Shown here: piece after piece, positions 1 to 34,136 of the stretch | How positions within the stretch are numbered: position 1 is the first letter of the stretch | Layout of the letters: every line of letters begins with the position of its first letter | Assembly (NCBI GenBank): GCA_002686295.1 | Contig: NZBB01000012.1 | Span: 1 to 35,593 of the forward strand | Direction of reading: 5' to 3' | Length of the DNA stretch: 35,593 bases | Source: Candidatus Woesearchaeota archaeon | GTDB lineage: Archaea; Nanobdellota; Nanobdellia; Woesearchaeales; GCA-2686295 | Made by a program: the position numbers and the translations under genes | The notes under the pieces: model-generated | What the model saw: only the letters and a program-made list of their open reading frames with translations | Database searches by the model: none | Told to the model about the DNA's origin: nothing

Positions 1-3000
1 CAGTTGAGTTAACACCAAAAGTATTTACTGATTTTAGATGCACATAATACATTTCTCCAGGTACAAGTGTTAAGTTTGTTATTTCATATGACACATTATT
101 TCCTACTGCAAACCACGTTTCTTCATTATCATAACCATTATTTGGATAAGTCTCTGTTCCGACTGCTAATTCATAATGATCAAAGTATTGCTCACTCGTA
201 GTGTTTGTCCAGCTAACATTTAACATAAATCTATTATCTGTTGTTGCACCCGTATCATTTATTTCTGAAGATCCTGAGATTGTTGCAGCAATAATTATTG
301 CTTTATTATCTGTTATCTGATGATTTATTGTATCATTGATTGTGAATGATAGATTGTATGTGTCGTCTGAAAGACTTTGTGTTAAGCTACATGTTTGCAA
401 ATATCTATTTCCTGAGCAGCTTATGTTTGCTCCCATCTCCCAACTACTTATGTTGTGAGCTGTTTCTTGATCCCATACATGCATTGTGCTGTTTGTACTA
501 TTTGAGATGTTCAACAGCAATGTTGGCAGGCTAACATTGTAATCATCCTCTAAAACAAATGTTATAGTTGGAGTGTTAGTAGTTAAGTTTCCTGGAATTG
601 TTGAAAGATTTATTGTTGGAGCTGAATTGTCATAGAATATTGTTATTAAGTCAGAATCCTGTCCTATTAATCCAAGCCTACTACCTTCTAATGTTATATT
701 GTTCTCCCCTTCACGTAAACTGAGCGTGATGTTAAACCATCCTTTTGGATAATTTGTGTCATAAACACTTATTGAAGTTGTAGTTGGTACTGTGGCTGTT
801 AAGTTTTCCTGCATACAAACTCGTGTATAAAATGCGTTTTCTCCTTCCCCCCAGTCGTTTGTTCTGTTTGTAATATTATATCTTTCAAAGTAAGCATTAC
901 TCTTATTGTGATTTACAAATTCAATCCATCTTCCTGGAATAAAACTCTCATTCAGCGTCTTGTTTACATATACACAATATTCTCCTTGTGATGCCTGTTG
1001 TTTTAGTGTGGTTGTTATTAAATTTAATTCTGAATCTTGAGTACTTGTGGTGTAGTTGTTGTATGGTATTAACTCTCCTTGTTCTATTGTTGCATTCACT
1101 AATGTGTTGTTTTTACCTATTACTCCAATTATGTTTGCAATGTTTGTGTCTATTAATGATTCATAAAGCCATATTCCTGCTTTTTCCGGAGTGTTTGATA
1201 TTGTGAATGTTCGTGTTTCTGAAGTATTTGTTAATCCTAAGTCATTTTCACAACTAACATCCCAGTTATATTCTCCATCTGTCAAGTTATCTAATTGAAC
1301 TCCTGTGCTTGTTCCATTCTGTACTGTTTCGTTTGTGTTGTTTAATATTGTGTTTATGTAAATGGAGCAGTTCAATGATTGGTCGAATATATCTGTAACA
1401 TTGAAGCTTAATGTTATGTTATTATTATCATCCTCTTCATAATTATCTGCAAGCAACTCTAAGCTAACTATTGGCGTCTGAGAATTAACAAGAAATTGTT
1501 TTTTCTCGCTTGTGTTGCTGTTTCCAATTACATCATTTATACTAACTGTTATGTTATGGTAACTATTAGTTAAGTTTGCATTTAACGAACATTCTTGTTG
1601 TGTTGCTGTTCCTGAACAACTAACATTTGTTGAGTTGTATATTGTTCCTGATATATTCGCCACTACTGTTGAAACATTCAAGACATAGTCATCTGAAATT
1701 GAGAAGTTTATCTTTGCATTGTTAATTGTATAATTGGTGACTAATGACAAGTTTATCGTTGGCGCTGTAATATCTGAGAATGTGTTGAATGAATCTGATA
1801 CAGGACCATAGTTCTCCAGTCTCTTAGCATCAACCTGTATAGTGTTATTTCCTGAGAACAAAGGCACCGATACATTGAACCATCCTGTTGGTTTTGATTG
1901 ATTATAAGCTGAAACTGAATCGCTTGTGTTTATATCTTCTCTTAGAGACGGAGTTATGTTTATTTGATATCTGTCTGCAAATTCCGTTGTGTCGATTATT
2001 TCATATCTTTCCCAGTTTGGTGGTTGATGGTTTGAAAATTCTGTGAAATTACCTACTCCAAAACCTGCTGGTAAGGATCCTTCTTTATTTATGTAAAAGA
2101 AACCATTGCCTGCTATTTGTGATTCATTTATTGTCGCCGTTCCTGTTTTACTTGATGTTTCTGTTGTCAGTGTTGAATTTATATACTGACTTGCTTCTTG
2201 CTGTGCATAAACTGTTACATTTGTATTTAGTCCACTTCTGTTCACATATCCATAGATGTTTATTCTTGTATCACTTGTTAAATTGATTGGAGTGAATATT
2301 ACTGGTTTGTCAGGTGTTACATCTACTGTAAAGCTTTTTGTTTCTGAAGTGTTGTTGTTTCCTGCAAGATCTTCACAGCTGATATTCCAGTTATAGTTTC
2401 CGTCGGCTAAGAATTTATTTACAAATTCAGTTTTAGTGTCGTTTTGTACTGTGCTGTTTGTTTCGTTCAAAACACCATTTATTATTAGGTCACAATCCAG
2501 AGTGTTTGAATAAGCATCTGTTACATTAAATGTGAAGTTAAAATTGTTTTGATCCAGATAAGTATAACTATCTATTGGATTTGATAAATTCATTGTAGGG
2601 TTTGAAGTGTCTAAAAGAACATACGCTGTTTTTATTGGCGTTTCGTTGTTTCTGGCATCATCTCCTGAAAAGTACTTTACTGTGTTGTTTCCTTCTGAAT
2701 TGATTGTTTGAGAATTTGCAGCTGTTGGTGTACAACCAACTCCTTGACATGAATAGTTTGTTATCGGGCTAAGATCATCGTTATCAGATGTAAAATTAAC
2801 TATTATGCTACTAACACTTTTCCATTCACTTGGAGCATCTGTGCTTGATATTGGTGCTAAGTTGTCAATACCGATAATATTTTCTGAAGAAGACATAGAT
2901 CCATTGTTGTTACTGCAGTTAACATACCATGTATGTGTTCCATTATCCAAAGTTTTATTGGCTAATATTGTTGTAGTAACATTCTCCAAAACATTAGACT

Positions 3001-3229
3001 CGTTTCCATAATTATCATCATCTATGTATAGTGTACAATTAGCAAGTGCAATAGGTCCTCCAGTCCAATTGAAACGGAAATCTATAGTGTCGTTTGTTCC
3101 GTTTATCCACCCTGAAGCTGATAAATCTGCAGGATCATAAATTGTAACATAACTGATAGCAGCACTTACTAGCAATACAACTAACAAAAACAATATTGCT
3201 CCGAATCCTATTATGCTCTTATTTCTCAT
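1..3229 (-). CDS. Giant secreted/surface protein with repeated Ig-like/FN3-like modules (C-terminus off the left edge)
   Basis: Minus-strand frame open from ATG at 3229 to the window edge (>=1076 codons), so absent from the ORF track. N-terminus MRNKSIIGFGAILFLLVVLLVSAAISYVTIYDP is a signal/anchor. Very many N-x-S/T sequons and repeats such as SETKSFTVDVTPDK / SETRTFTISNTPEK. Confidence 0.85.
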   Translation of the reverse strand, partial: MRNKSIIGFGAILFLLVVLLVSAAISYVTIYDPADLSASGWINGTNDTIDFRFNWTGGPIALANCTLYIDDDNYGNESNVLENVTTTILANKTLDNGTHTWYVNCSNNNGSMSSSENIIGIDNLAPISSTDAPSEWKSVSSIIVNFTSDNDDLSPITNYSCQGVGCTPTAANSQTINSEGNNTVKYFSGDDARNNETPIKTAYVLLDTSNPTMNLSNPIDSYTYLDQNNFNFTFNVTDAYSNTLDCDLIINGVLNETNSTVQNDTKTEFVNKFLADGNYNWNISCEDLAGNNNTSETKSFTVDVTPDKPVIFTPINLTSDTRINIYGYVNRSGLNTNVTVYAQQEASQYINSTLTTETSSKTGTATINESQIAGNGFFYINKEGSLPAGFGVGNFTEFSNHQPPNWERYEIIDTTEFADRYQINITPSLREDINTSDSVSAYNQSKPTGWFNVSVPLFSGNNTIQVDAKRLENYGPVSDSFNTFSDITAPTINLSLVTNYTINNAKINFSISDDYVLNVSTVVANISGTIYNSTNVSCSGTATQQECSLNANLTNSYHNITVSINDVIGNSNTSEKKQFLVNSQTPIVSLELLADNYEEDDNNNITLSFNVTDIFDQSLNCSIYINTILNNTNETVQNGTSTGVQLDNLTDGEYNWDVSCENDLGLTNTSETRTFTISNTPEKAGIWLYESLIDTNIANIIGVIGKNNTLVNATIEQGELIPYNNYTTSTQDSELNLITTTLKQQASQGEYCVYVNKTLNESFIPGRWIEFVNHNKSNAYFERYNITNRTNDWGEGENAFYTRVCMQENLTATVPTTTSISVYDTNYPKGWFNITLSLREGENNITLEGSRLGLIGQDSDLITIFYDNSAPTINLSTIPGNLTTNTPTITFVLEDDYNVSLPTLLLNISNSTNSTMHVWDQETAHNISSWEMGANISCSGNRYLQTCSLTQSLSDDTYNLSFTINDTINHQITDNKAIIIAATISGSSEINDTGATTDNRFMLNVSWTNTTSEQYFDHYELAVGTETYPNNGYDNEETWFAVGNNVSYEITNLTLVPGEMYYVHLKSVNTFGVNST

Positions 3230-3591: not shown

Positions 3592-4149
3592 TTAGAAAAA
3601 AGCATTAAGCAAATTTGAATAGACACTAAAGCCGTCAATACCAGGTATTGGCAACATATTCAAAATAAATAAGAAACCATTTATCTTTTTTGTTAGCAGT
3701 AAATAATAAGTTTTTTTCCTGTCAAGCTTCAGGTTCTTAAGAGCAAAAGAAGAACCAATCCAAAAAAGTGCATGCATTAAAGGACCTGCAAAAGAAATCA
3801 TTGCAAACTGCAAATTCGTACCTGTTCCAAGAATAGAAACAAAACCCGGAACAAAGAATATGAAACCAAAATTCATCAATTTCAACAAAATACCCAATCC
3901 TAGAAAAGTATAATGTGCATGAAATGTGGCTTGCATTCCGAAACTCAGAGCAAAAAACTTGTGTGCCAACTCATGAAAAATTATGGCAGGTACAACAACA
4001 GAACAGGCAAACCAAAAATTGCCCCAATTAAAACCTGATTTGAAATCAACCAGAACATCTTTCGGTCTATTTTTGAAAACATTCATAAAAATATATCCAA
4101 TACCAAAAGTCATTATTATAGCGTCAATAAATTCTTGAAAAACAAACAT
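3592..4149 (-). CDS. M50 (site-2-protease-like) intramembrane metalloprotease
   Basis: HELAH (HExxH) in a hydrophobic segment plus LNMLPIPGIDG (NxxPxxxxDG) near the C-terminus; multi-TM. Confidence 0.8.
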   Translation of the reverse strand: MFVFQEFIDAIIMTFGIGYIFMNVFKNRPKDVLVDFKSGFNWGNFWFACSVVVPAIIFHELAHKFFALSFGMQATFHAHYTFLGLGILLKLMNFGFIFFVPGFVSILGTGTNLQFAMISFAGPLMHALFWIGSSFALKNLKLDRKKTYYLLLTKKINGFLFILNMLPIPGIDGFSVYSNLLNAFF

Positions 4150-4188
4150 GATAGTATTTAGAGAATCTGTTTTTTAAAAAATTTGTGT

Positions 4189-4770
4189 TTAGCAACAAAG
4201 AACAGATGTGAAAGAATTCTCTTTAACATCACCAGCGTCTTGCAAAGAACAATAACCTGCAAAAGTTCTGACTCTAACATCACAATTACCAAATTCATTA
4301 GAAGAGTCTTTGAACTGCAAACCACTACAAGAACTATCACTTGAGGAATAATAGCTTACTGTTTTAGCCTTATTGGTCATTAAGCAAGAATCATAACCAG
4401 AAACTTTGCAAGCAGTTTTTCCAGTCATGGCTTTAATCTTTGAATAACCTTTATTATCAAGATTTATCCAAGAGCATTTTTTATCAGAAATATCCTGAAC
4501 AGAACTAACAACCGCTTTCCCTCCAATATTACTATTCTTAAATGAGAATACAGACTTTGTTATTTCAAAATCTAAATTTTTAAAAAAGTCTTTACTAAGA
4601 GCTAAAATTTTTGGAGATTCAACAGTTTTTTTTAAAAATGTAGAGTCTTGATTTGATTTCTTTACAACATTAGCAGTTGGACTTACTTGATTAAAAGATA
4701 ATGTCATCATAAAAAAAGCTAAAATTAGAACTATAGCCATAAAATGAATATCATGTTCATGATTTCCCAT
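4189..4770 (-). CDS. Membrane-anchored Cys-rich protein of unknown function
   Basis: Single N-terminal TM (FMAIVLILAFFMMTLSF) followed by an extracytoplasmic domain with about nine cysteines, ending in SVLCC. Confidence 0.7.
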   Translation of the reverse strand: MGNHEHDIHFMAIVLILAFFMMTLSFNQVSPTANVVKKSNQDSTFLKKTVESPKILALSKDFFKNLDFEITKSVFSFKNSNIGGKAVVSSVQDISDKKCSWINLDNKGYSKIKAMTGKTACKVSGYDSCLMTNKAKTVSYYSSSDSSCSGLQFKDSSNEFGNCDVRVRTFAGYCSLQDAGDVKENSFTSVLCC

Positions 4771-4817
4771 AAAGCACCCCTAAATAAATCCAATACTAAT
4801 GAAAGTATTTAAAGTTT

Positions 4818-4850
4818 TCTAAATACCGTCTAAATACCGTTTAAATACTG
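4818..4850. repeat. Three tandem 11-bp repeats
   Basis: TCTAAATACCG TCTAAATACCG TTTAAATACTG, between the Cys-rich protein gene and the M50 gene ending at 4841. Confidence 0.85.
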
Positions 4851-5449
4851 ATGAAATTGACTGCAAAGAACAATATTAGTAAAGAAGGTACAATTACTGC
4901 AGCATAAGCTTTCTTGCTCCATATCAAAACCTTTTTTCCATCTAAAATAAAGAAAGGCAACATATTGAAAAAAGCCAAGAAAGCATTCACCCAAACACCA
5001 TAAGAAGCTAATTCTTGAATTATATCTAAACCAAAACTATTGGCTAAAAAAAAGATAATTAAAAAAAACAGAGACAAAAAAATGTTCATAACAGGTCCTG
5101 CAATCGATATTTTCCCATTTTGAGCTCTTGAAACTCGTCCTGAAATCATAACTGCTCCTGGAGCAGCTATCAAAAAGCCGAAAAAACTCATTATTAAAGC
5201 AAGTACCAACATCTGAATATTAGCTCTGAACTCTGCAAAACAACCATACCTTTGAGCAACAATTTTATGACCAAGTTCGTGAAGAAGAAAACCAGAACCA
5301 ACAGTAAAAGATGCAAAAATAACAGATTTTATTATATTTAAAGAGAATAAATTTCCTCCATTCAACAATATTCCAAAAGCCAGACTTATGAAAATCCAAG
5401 CTTCTAAAAGATCATGTATTTCTCTCTTCGAAGTTCTTATTTTCATCAA
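4841..5449 (-). CDS. M50 (site-2-protease-like) intramembrane metalloprotease, second copy
   Basis: HELGHKIVAQRYG (HExxH) and FNMLPFFILDGKKV (NxxPxxxxDG); multi-TM. Confidence 0.8.
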   Translation of the reverse strand: MMKIRTSKREIHDLLEAWIFISLAFGILLNGGNLFSLNIIKSVIFASFTVGSGFLLHELGHKIVAQRYGCFAEFRANIQMLVLALIMSFFGFLIAAPGAVMISGRVSRAQNGKISIAGPVMNIFLSLFFLIIFFLANSFGLDIIQELASYGVWVNAFLAFFNMLPFFILDGKKVLIWSKKAYAAVIVPSLLILFFAVNFISI

Positions 5450-5566: not shown

Positions 5567-6064
5567 GTGGATAGCAAAGGACCAATTTTAATAAGTTATT
5601 TGTCTCAAATAATACTAATAATAATTCTTTTTCAAGCAAGCGATTTATTAAAAGCATTTACAAATATTGCATTGATGGCTTCATTATTATTGGTTATAAC
5701 AACCATGGCAAAAGAGAAAAGATTAGCATTTAGTCAAAAATACTCTTTTTTCACATTCATAATACTAGCACTATTTGTATTTATTAATATTTCAAGTAAA
5801 ACATCAGATTCATTGTCGATATTAATCATACTGTCTTTAATAATAGGATTTTTTCTGACAGCTTTCTCAAAAGAAGAAACAACTGAAACAAAAATTGTTG
5901 ATTTAGAAATGCCTAAAAAACCAAGAATAGTGTCTGCCAAAGATAGTTTGAAATATCATTCAACAGATTGCGGATATGTCAACAATGCAAAAGAATTAAA
6001 ATTTTTCAACTCTGAAAAACAGGCAGAAGCAATGGGCTTAAATCCATGCAAGATGTGTCAATAA
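5567..6064 (+). CDS. Multi-TM protein with C-terminal Ada-type Cys/His metal-binding tail
   Basis: GTG start; about 4-5 hydrophobic segments, then KYHSTDCGYVNNAKELKFFNSEKQAEAMGLNPCKMCQ. Confidence 0.7.
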   Translation: MDSKGPILISYLSQIILIIILFQASDLLKAFTNIALMASLLLVITTMAKEKRLAFSQKYSFFTFIILALFVFINISSKTSDSLSILIILSLIIGFFLTAFSKEETTETKIVDLEMPKKPRIVSAKDSLKYHSTDCGYVNNAKELKFFNSEKQAEAMGLNPCKMCQ

Positions 6065-12547: not shown

Positions 12548-13108
12548 TTAGCTTATTTTAAAAAATTTATTAAATTTTTCTTGAAATTTGTAATAAAATA
12601 GCAACATAAACACACCTACTAACATCCAAATAATAGATTTTGTTAAGAATCCAAAAAAAGGATTACATAAGTCTAAAGGATTTCCTGTTATATTATCTGT
12701 TCCACAAATAAAATTCCCAGATATTTCATGAATTGTAAATATTATTGGAAGCAGAAAAACATACTTTTTATTCTTATTCTTAGATTTTTTATAATAAAGT
12801 ATGGCTAAAAAAGTGGACATTAGGATTATTGTGATAATTCCACCTAAAGCAAAATTTAAAGATGGATTTCCTTCTATTATTTTAGTTCTTTGTGGGAGTT
12901 TAATAAAACTAAAAAGAGGCATATCAATCCAGTTTTCAATACTAAATTTAGTTATAGTCCCATCTTCTATTAGATTTCCTAAAAATCCATAAGCTATATG
13001 TCCTCCCTCGTGGATATAAAAAGAACCCCCATAAACAAATAAACTGATTAAAAAAGAAATAATGAACAATATGAAAAGAAAGTAAGCTTTGAAAAAAACT
13101 TTTTTCAT
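12548..13108 (-). CDS. Multi-TM protein with HExxH, possible membrane metalloprotease
   Basis: Hydrophobic protein with YIHEGGHIAYGFLGN in a membrane segment; clear NPDG motif not seen. Confidence 0.5.
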   Translation of the reverse strand: MKKVFFKAYFLFILFIISFLISLFVYGGSFYIHEGGHIAYGFLGNLIEDGTITKFSIENWIDMPLFSFIKLPQRTKIIEGNPSLNFALGGIITIILMSTFLAILYYKKSKNKNKKYVFLLPIIFTIHEISGNFICGTDNITGNPLDLCNPFFGFLTKSIIWMLVGVFMLLFYYKFQEKFNKFFKIS

Positions 13109-32648: not shown

Positions 32649-32671
32649 TTATTAATAATGATTATTAATAA
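32649..32671. promoter_or_regulatory. Fur/PerR-type operator overlapping the start codon
   Basis: TTATTAATAAT-G-ATTATTAATAA: perfect 11-1-11 inverted repeat with 7-1-7 Fur-family architecture; centre G is the third base of the ATG at 32658. Confidence 0.65.
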
Positions 32672-33062
32672 GAAATTATTGACAACAAGAAATACTATTC
32701 AGAAAAAAGGAATTCTAGAATATTTAAAAAATGTTAAAACACATCCAACCGCAGAAATAGTTTTTAAGAAAGTAATAAAAAAAATGCCTAAAATAACCTT
32801 AGCAACAGTTTACAGAAACTTAAATCAGATGGCCGAACAGAAAAAAATATTGAGACTTGAAATAAATAAAGAATATCATTATGATGCTTGCACAAAAAAA
32901 CACCAACATGGAGTTTGTCAAGATTGTGGAAAAATAATTGATTTCTTTCAAAACAACATATCTGATTTTGCAATAAAAAATCTTAAAACTAACAAATTCA
33001 AAGCGAATAATGTATCTATTATGTTTAAAGGATTATGTGATGAATGCGAGGTTAAAAAATGA
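32658..33062 (+). CDS. Fur/PerR-family regulator
   Basis: HPTAEIVFKKVIKKMPKITLATVYRNLNQM, HQHGVCQDCGKIIDF, GLCDEC zinc motifs. Confidence 0.92.
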   Translation: MIINKKLLTTRNTIQKKGILEYLKNVKTHPTAEIVFKKVIKKMPKITLATVYRNLNQMAEQKKILRLEINKEYHYDACTKKHQHGVCQDCGKIIDFFQNNISDFAIKNLKTNKFKANNVSIMFKGLCDECEVKK

Positions 33063-33160
33063 TTGAAGGAGAAAACAAGGAATTTCTTATTAAAGCTTTT
33101 GAAAACGTGAAACCATTAAAACATGTTTCAGAAATATTAGAGTTTATAAAAAACCAATAG
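33059..33160 (+). CDS. Candidate 33-aa microprotein between fur/perR and peroxiredoxin
   Basis: ATGA overlap with the regulator stop; MIEGENKEFLIKAFENVKPLKHVSEILEFIKNQ*; stop followed by GGAGG of the next gene. Confidence 0.5.
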   Translation: MIEGENKEFLIKAFENVKPLKHVSEILEFIKNQ

Positions 33161-33175
33161 GAGGAAAAAAATAAA

Positions 33176-33751
33176 ATGGAAGAACAAAAACTTTGTATAA
33201 ACGAAAAAGCTCCTGCTTTCACAGCAGAAGTTTACCACAACAACGAGATAAAGAAAGTAAGCTTAAAAGATTATGAAGGCAAATGGACAGTCTTATTCTT
33301 TTACCCTGCAGACTTTACTTTTATCTGCCCAACAGAATTAGGAGAGTTGGCAAACAAATATGATGAGTTAAAAAAACTAGGTGTTGAAGTGTTAAGTGTA
33401 TCAACAGACACAACATTCGTTCATAAAGCCTGGCACGACAATTCTAAAACAATCAAGAATGTTAAGTTTCCAATGGTTGCAGATCCAACCGGACAAATAT
33501 GTAAAGATTACAAAACTTACATCCTGGAAGAAGGTCTTTCTTTAAGAGGAACATTCATAATAGATCCTGATGGAGTATTGAAAGCTTTTGAAGTGCATGA
33601 TAATTCAATAGGTAGAAGTGTGGATGAACTTATAAGAAAAATACAGGCAGCACAATTTGTCAGAGAAAATGGAGGAGAAGTTTGCCCTGCAAACTGGAAA
33701 CCAGGATCTAAAACATTAAAACCAGGTTTAGATTTAGTTGGAAAAATATAG
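33176..33751 (+). CDS. ahpC: 2-Cys peroxiredoxin (AhpC-like)
   Basis: FFYPADFTFICPTELGELANKYDELKKLGVEVLSVSTDTTFVHKAWHD and GGEVCPANWKPG. Confidence 0.95.
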   Translation: MEEQKLCINEKAPAFTAEVYHNNEIKKVSLKDYEGKWTVLFFYPADFTFICPTELGELANKYDELKKLGVEVLSVSTDTTFVHKAWHDNSKTIKNVKFPMVADPTGQICKDYKTYILEEGLSLRGTFIIDPDGVLKAFEVHDNSIGRSVDELIRKIQAAQFVRENGGEVCPANWKPGSKTLKPGLDLVGKI

Positions 33752-33761
33752 ATGGAAAAAA

Positions 33762-34136
33762 ATGACTGAAAAAAAACAAATCTATAAATGCCCCTTTTGC
33801 GGAAACGTTGTTGAAGTTGTTTATTCTGGAGAAGAACAATTAGTCTGCTGTAGACAACCAATGAAACAGTTAAAAGAGAACACAGAAGATGCTGCAACAG
33901 AAAAACACATCCCAATAATTGAAAAAACAGAAAATGGGGTGTCAGTTCAAGTTGGTTCTGTTCCACATCCAATGGATGAAGATCACTACATAGTGTTCAT
34001 AGAAATTATAGCAGATGGAAAAATTTATAGACAAAATTTAAAGCCCGGAAACGAACCAAAAGCACATTTTTGTATTGAAGCAAAAGAATTTGCTGTTAGA
34101 GCATATTGTAATTTACATGGTTTGTGGAAGAATTAA
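33762..34136 (+). CDS. dfx: Desulfoferrodoxin/superoxide reductase
   Basis: KCPFCGNVVEVVYSGEEQLVCCRQPM (desulforedoxin), EKHIPII, VPHPMDEDHYI, AYCNLHGLWKN. Confidence 0.93.
   Translation: MTEKKQIYKCPFCGNVVEVVYSGEEQLVCCRQPMKQLKENTEDAATEKHIPIIEKTENGVSVQVGSVPHPMDEDHYIVFIEIIADGKIYRQNLKPGNEPKAHFCIEAKEFAVRAYCNLHGLWKN

Follow-up and report, generated by a model that had tools for sequence, protein, structure and literature searches.

Site-2 proteases of family M50, among them SpoIVFB, the M. jannaschii enzyme MJ0392, and RseP, are multi-TM proteins that combine an HExxH motif with a second motif, N-x-x-P...DG. Rhomboids of family S54, such as GlpG and Haloferax RhoII, form an unrelated class with a GASGA serine and a conserved histidine. 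In fungal SREBP cleavage, a rhomboid acts in a step that is done elsewhere by a site-2 protease: S. pombe and A. fumigatus have no site-2 protease homologs, and their rhomboid Rbd2 or RbdB takes part in the cut (PMC5285346). Unlike the case described below, fungal cleavage additionally depends on the Dsc E3 ligase complex, and an in-place swap of genes has not been described for it (PMC5285346). Among archaea, Haloferax volcanii carries both enzyme classes without exclusion; its RhoII is tied to the surface glycoprotein, and deletion of rhoII raises the amount of the site-2 protease homolog HVO_1870 (PMC9263693). What archaeal site-2 proteases and rhomboids cut, and to what end, is described as scarcely known (PMC9263693).

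Here we analyze a Woesearchaeales locus encoding a small site-2 protease, M50b, whose place is taken in sister genomes by a rhomboid, RhoA. We consider it fairly likely that the job of M50b can be done by either of these two unrelated enzymes and that one has repeatedly replaced the other, often in place.

Two site-2 proteases around a cysteine-rich membrane protein

The window is the whole stretch of DNA that was analyzed, a 35.6-kb contig of an 858-kb genome that is 84% complete. A preliminary description had reported a cysteine-rich protein flanked by two M50 proteases. This cluster is real, comprising three open reading frames on the minus strand at the positions described, and a fourth gene lies downstream:

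1..3229, minus strand: giant surface protein, incomplete here because the contig ends within it
3592..4149, minus strand: M50b, 185-aa site-2 protease with HELAH and NMLPIPGIDG, of an order-wide family, assigned by motifs, orthologs, and AlphaFold2 fold; this is the "slot" protease, whose position a rhomboid takes in sister genomes
4189..4770, minus strand: CysR, 193-aa single-pass membrane protein with a C-terminal cysteine domain, assigned by orthologs, without a match in Pfam or NCBIfam or a confident one in the PDB
4806..4813, minus strand: putative TATA-like box (TTTAAATA), located 36-43 nt upstream of the CysR start codon, proposed from sequence
4841..5446, minus strand: M50a, 201-aa site-2 protease with HELGH and NMLPFFILDG, of an order-wide family, assigned by Pfam match and orthologs

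Transcription would run from M50a (5446-4841) through CysR (4770-4189) and M50b (4149-3592) to the giant gene (3229-1), with intergenic gaps of 70, 39, and 362 nt. The earliest possible start of M50a is a TTG at 5449, followed by an ATG at 5446, and the ATG is the preferred reading. Given the TATA-like box before its start, CysR may have its own promoter, so that a single operon is only possible.

Both flanking proteins had been called site-2-protease-like, and conserved motifs together with the profile match of M50a and the fold match of M50b bear this out. M50a scored 42.5 bits against Pfam PF02163, above the cut-off of 27.2, while the window's M50b fell just under it (21.2 bits) and its ortholog in G006 exceeded it (44.9 bits). 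The H, E, and H of HExxH, which lies in a TM region, were invariant in 4 M50a and 10 M50b orthologs, as were the N, P, D, and G of N-x-x-P-x-x-x-x-D-G. When the AlphaFold2 model of M50b (pLDDT 86.6) was compared with the PDB using Foldseek, the top matches were SpoIVFB and M. jannaschii S2P (8vjm, 3b4r) at a probability of 1.00, with a TM-score of about 0.5 and E-values of 0.009-0.02. By these signatures, M50a and M50b belong to the site-2 proteases, with active sites that are conserved and proteolytic activity that is predicted, and M50b shares the predicted fold of SpoIVFB and MJ0392. They differ from SpoIVFB, MJ0392, and RseP in being a minimal core of 185-202 aa that has no PDZ or CBS domains and no gene for a known sigma or anti-sigma substrate in its vicinity, and M50b differs further in being replaceable by a rhomboid. 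When 324 genomes of the order were searched with profiles of M50a and M50b, most of them proved to contain relatives.

A third HExxH protein had been noted at 12548-13108 on the minus strand. It is indeed multi-TM with an HEGGH motif, but we rejected it as a third M50: neither Pfam nor NCBIfam gave an M50 match, and the seven nearest genomes contained no homolog, which places this orphan outside the M50/CysR cluster. Separately, positions 5567-6064 on the plus strand encode a three-TM protein whose short cysteine-containing tail weakly resembles the Ada zinc domain or a "sunset" domain; in several relatives this gene is retained, with NucS on one side and the M50a/CysR locus on the other.

CysR and its neighborhood within one family

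CysR has one TM segment at about residues 8-26, preceded by only about 8 cytosolic residues with a conserved H-x-H-D-[IL]-[HY] start and followed by a linker motif, [TS][GA]x[VA][VI]. Six cysteines of its C-terminal domain are invariant across eight orthologs. The remaining two are either both present or, in G003 and G006, both missing, as expected of a disulfide pair, which supports an outside location of the domain. The earlier picture of a single-pass protein with a cysteine-rich outer domain therefore holds, and judging by its orthologs in all eight genomes of the family and its invariant cysteines, CysR is a real gene. It also continues to be unrecognized: searches of Pfam, NCBIfam, PDB sequences, and PDB folds gave no meaningful match, and its profile had no hit among solved structures (best E 0.28). 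The AlphaFold2 model was moderate (pLDDT 62.7, mostly 77-88 in the outer domain) and had no meaningful fold match in the PDB.

Orthologs of CysR were found in 8/8 genomes of the window's family (f1, G000-G007) and in none elsewhere among the 353 order genomes searched. Since M50a and M50b occur order-wide, CysR is not their general substrate. More distant copies of the outer domain occur once each in about 11 scattered Woesearchaeales genomes, in proteins that typically begin with a single TM or a lipoprotein-like start (L049-L053, L070-L074), and no M50-like HExxH gene adjoins them. When genome contigs were scanned with just the window's CysR, no relatives came up, and the eight-row alignment was too diverse as a query; a closer four-row alignment led to four MAGs. 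CysR and most of its distant relatives share a small-residue motif, approximately [TSA][GA]x[AV], shortly past the TM. We rejected [TSA]Gx[AV] as a proteome-wide processing signal: counted over most of the window's genome, it occurred in 2/157 N-terminal-TM proteins versus 1 in a control position, which makes it a trait of the CysR-like family rather than a general signal.

The 3' neighbor of CysR is M50b in G000, G005, and G006, and RhoA in G001, G002, G003, and G004, where the rhomboid lies on the opposite strand with its GxSG serine and histidine intact. M50a is the 5' neighbor in G000, G003, and G005. In G007, CysR sits on a short contig without a visible protease, M50b lies by the giant protein, and M50a lies by NucS, in three separate places. 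As to whether homologs of CysR neighbor M50 genes, the answer is therefore divided: 4/8 orthologs do (G000, G003, G005, and G006), 3/8 have a rhomboid but no M50, and G007 and the distant homologs have none. The giant surface protein lies beyond the slot protease in 7/7 testable genomes, with one extra gene between them in G002, and this adjacency is at least as consistent as that of CysR and the giant gene. In G001 (L013:5240-12130) the giant protein spans 2296 aa, with an N-terminal signal or TM, a C-terminal TM followed by a cytosolic tail, and 122 NxS/T sequons.

These arrangements bear on two alternative readings of the cluster. The first holds that two M50 genes around CysR are a chance neighborhood inherited within one genus and functionally meaningless for CysR. 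The complete M50a-CysR-M50b order is confined within f1 to G000 and G005, and each M50 has different neighbors elsewhere, which fits a chance arrangement. However, CysR retains an adjoining intramembrane protease in 7/8 genomes despite the change of enzyme class, which keeps a link between CysR and a protease plausible, and we regard a meaningless neighborhood as rather unlikely.

The second reading, regulated intramembrane proteolysis with CysR as a dedicated substrate, extends a proposal of the preliminary description. The outer domain would read a signal, a site-1 cut would follow, M50a, M50b, or RhoA would cut the TM, and the histidine-rich N-terminus would be freed. The architecture of CysR fits, with its single TM, outer cysteine domain, and conserved cytosolic start, as do its persistent contact with protease genes and the motif past the TM that recurs in most of its distant relatives. 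There is also a tree conflict in G003, whose CysR and rhomboid group with those of the RhoA genomes while a small NucS and Nre tree places it with the M50b genomes G000 and G005. This conflict hints, with weak support, at joint transfer of the CysR-protease pair. Against this reading, most protease-bearing genomes lack CysR, the short cytosolic part contains no DNA-binding, signaling, or effector domain, and no conserved site-1 protease gene lies beside the cluster in orthologous loci. Furthermore, CysR is unlinked from both M50 genes in G007, and the rhomboid gene is convergent with CysR in RhoA genomes and so is not co-transcribed with it. Protease adjacency thus survives from the original proposal, but the missing effector and the order-wide occurrence of M50s without CysR tell against the rest, and we judge a dedicated cascade to be unlikely.

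Mutual exclusion and in-place exchange of M50b and RhoA

RhoA resembles GlpG and Haloferax RhoII in its GASGA serine and conserved histidine, and its profile matches solved GlpG structures. The active site (G107-A-S109-G-A and H164) is invariant in 10 members, and Pfam Rhomboid scores were 112-122 bits. Unlike GlpG and RhoII, RhoA is mutually exclusive with M50b and occupies its gene slot. We defined RhoA, from sequence alone, as the rhomboid-tree clade holding the neighbors of CysR. This clade has 46 members and a node support of 0.59, with 0.82-0.92 for nested groups of 44 and 40. No RhoA was found in the window genome's assembly (84% complete).

We called M50b present at a profile E-value below 1e-25, which made 195/304 listed genomes positive, and searched 311 genomes for rhomboids, taking those with E of at most 1e-28 as short rhomboids. 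Of the 46 members of the RhoA clade, 40 belonged to M50b-negative genomes and 0 to M50b-positive ones, and 6 were not listed. Inside families having both enzymes, 13.9 co-occurrences were expected and 0 observed. Short rhomboids as a whole occurred in 11/195 M50b-positive versus 47/109 M50b-negative genomes (Fisher 4e-15), counts in which same-family genomes are not independent and presence calls depend on E-value cut-offs, hand-transcribed tables, and incomplete genomes. When M50b labels were shuffled within families, the mean was 22.9 co-occurrences versus 11 observed, and 0/20000 shuffles were as low; this result also held without f1. As a control, M50a showed no association with the same short rhomboids (p = 0.18), so that the exclusion distinguishes M50b from M50a.

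Exclusion does not extend to all rhomboids, a generalization that we rejected since M50b is found together with the long class and with other clades. M50b-positive genomes carry clades other than RhoA; co-occurrence was seen for 8/11 in the sister clade and for 6 in other subfamilies. We also considered whether weak M50b matches conceal true M50b genes among the negatives; the one checked, in G021, was a cross-match to M50a on the same contig and in the same place. About 69 listed genomes have neither M50b nor RhoA, including 26/26 of family f62, which lack M50b and short rhomboids altogether. In other orders of the class, under a looser rhomboid definition, M50b was present in 6/43 rhomboid genomes versus 33/61 of the remainder (Fisher p = 3e-5), a trend that is weaker than in Woesearchaeales and carries strong family structure. 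None of the seven closest RhoA relatives outside the order has M50b. Open-access literature, of which coverage was incomplete, contained no report of such an exclusion.

The two enzymes also share genomic surroundings. Both M50b, commonly, and RhoA adjoin pyrG, the gene for CTP synthase, which was identified by eye from sequence. Using a set of neighbors chosen by inspection (pyrG, a 117-aa gene, patatin, FKBP, and PCMT), at least one lay within 1.5 kb at 17/26 M50b loci and 16/25 RhoA loci, versus 0/26 M50a loci. In at least four families besides f1, M50b and RhoA stand between equal neighbors. The order in G138 is a 554-aa gene, M50b, patatin, and pyrG, versus a 566-aa gene, RhoA, patatin, and pyrG in G139. 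Likewise, pyrG-M50b-FKBP in G296 corresponds to FKBP-RhoA-pyrG in G299, and the enzymes are exchanged at pyrG between G348 and G349. In G342 and G343, respectively, one flank of the exchanged gene consists of 522/526-aa and 304/298-aa genes, and the other of 117-aa and 196/199-aa genes. In f1, the exchange is between CysR-M50b-giant and CysR-RhoA-giant.

Mutual exclusion could also arise if each of M50b and RhoA damages the other enzyme or its substrates, such that only one is tolerated per genome. The complete lack of co-occurrence in the RhoA clade is expected equally under antagonism and redundancy. However, M50b coexists freely with other rhomboid clades, and a slot that loses one enzyme while gaining the other points to substitution, which makes such incompatibility improbable. 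Least probable of all is a genomic hot spot by pyrG that takes varied cargo and for which the proteases merely compete: one slot is used in many families, but the genes are single copy, no mobile-element genes were noticed at swap sites (viewed without family models), and exclusion holds where the slot lies elsewhere (between CysR and the giant gene in f1, and away from pyrG in the examined flanks of G169 and G174), and therefore does not stem from the pyrG site.

A probable shared job for two unrelated enzymes

Two unrelated membrane-cutting enzymes that swap one for one most likely have a common job. Each genome of the order holds, as a rule, M50b, a RhoA-type rhomboid, or neither, as expected from repeated non-orthologous replacement between a metalloprotease and a serine protease. 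The pattern would be identical, and redundancy would be inferred equally, had an ancestor carried both enzymes and its descendants each lost one of them. The roughly 69 genomes without either enzyme imply that cells can do without the job or that a third enzyme performs it. Opposite substrate orientations are usually preferred by rhomboids and site-2 proteases, which counts against this reading. Nevertheless, the exchange suggests that M50b and RhoA have the same biochemical role and substrate class, with CysR or the giant protein as a candidate client.

The shared job would most likely be cutting the TM anchors of single-pass membrane or surface proteins, for maturation, release, or clearance, which we think likelier than a dedicated two-step signaling cascade. 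In f1, the slot has moved to between CysR and the giant surface glycoprotein, making these two the best local candidate clients. We lean slightly towards the full proposal that M50b and RhoA are functionally equivalent and have been replaced in place many times across the order, with CysR, the giant protein, or both as clients in f1.

If this is true, zinc and serine chemistries must each be able to cleave the substrate that the enzymes share. An exclusive pair that swaps in place provides a genomic handle on archaeal intramembrane proteolysis, since equivalence is open to complementation and the substrate is narrowed to proteins retained in both kinds of genome. Family f62, which is without both enzymes, offers a negative set for substrate finding.

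Two minor observations concern other genes. At L256 in G344, a single gene separates M50b from a rhomboid that belongs to a different subfamily, possibly an intermediate arrangement. In the window, positions 32658-34136 on the plus strand encode in a row a Fur-like regulator, a peroxiredoxin, and a desulfoferrodoxin-like protein, which by eye form an oxygen-defense cluster in a host presumed to be an anaerobe.
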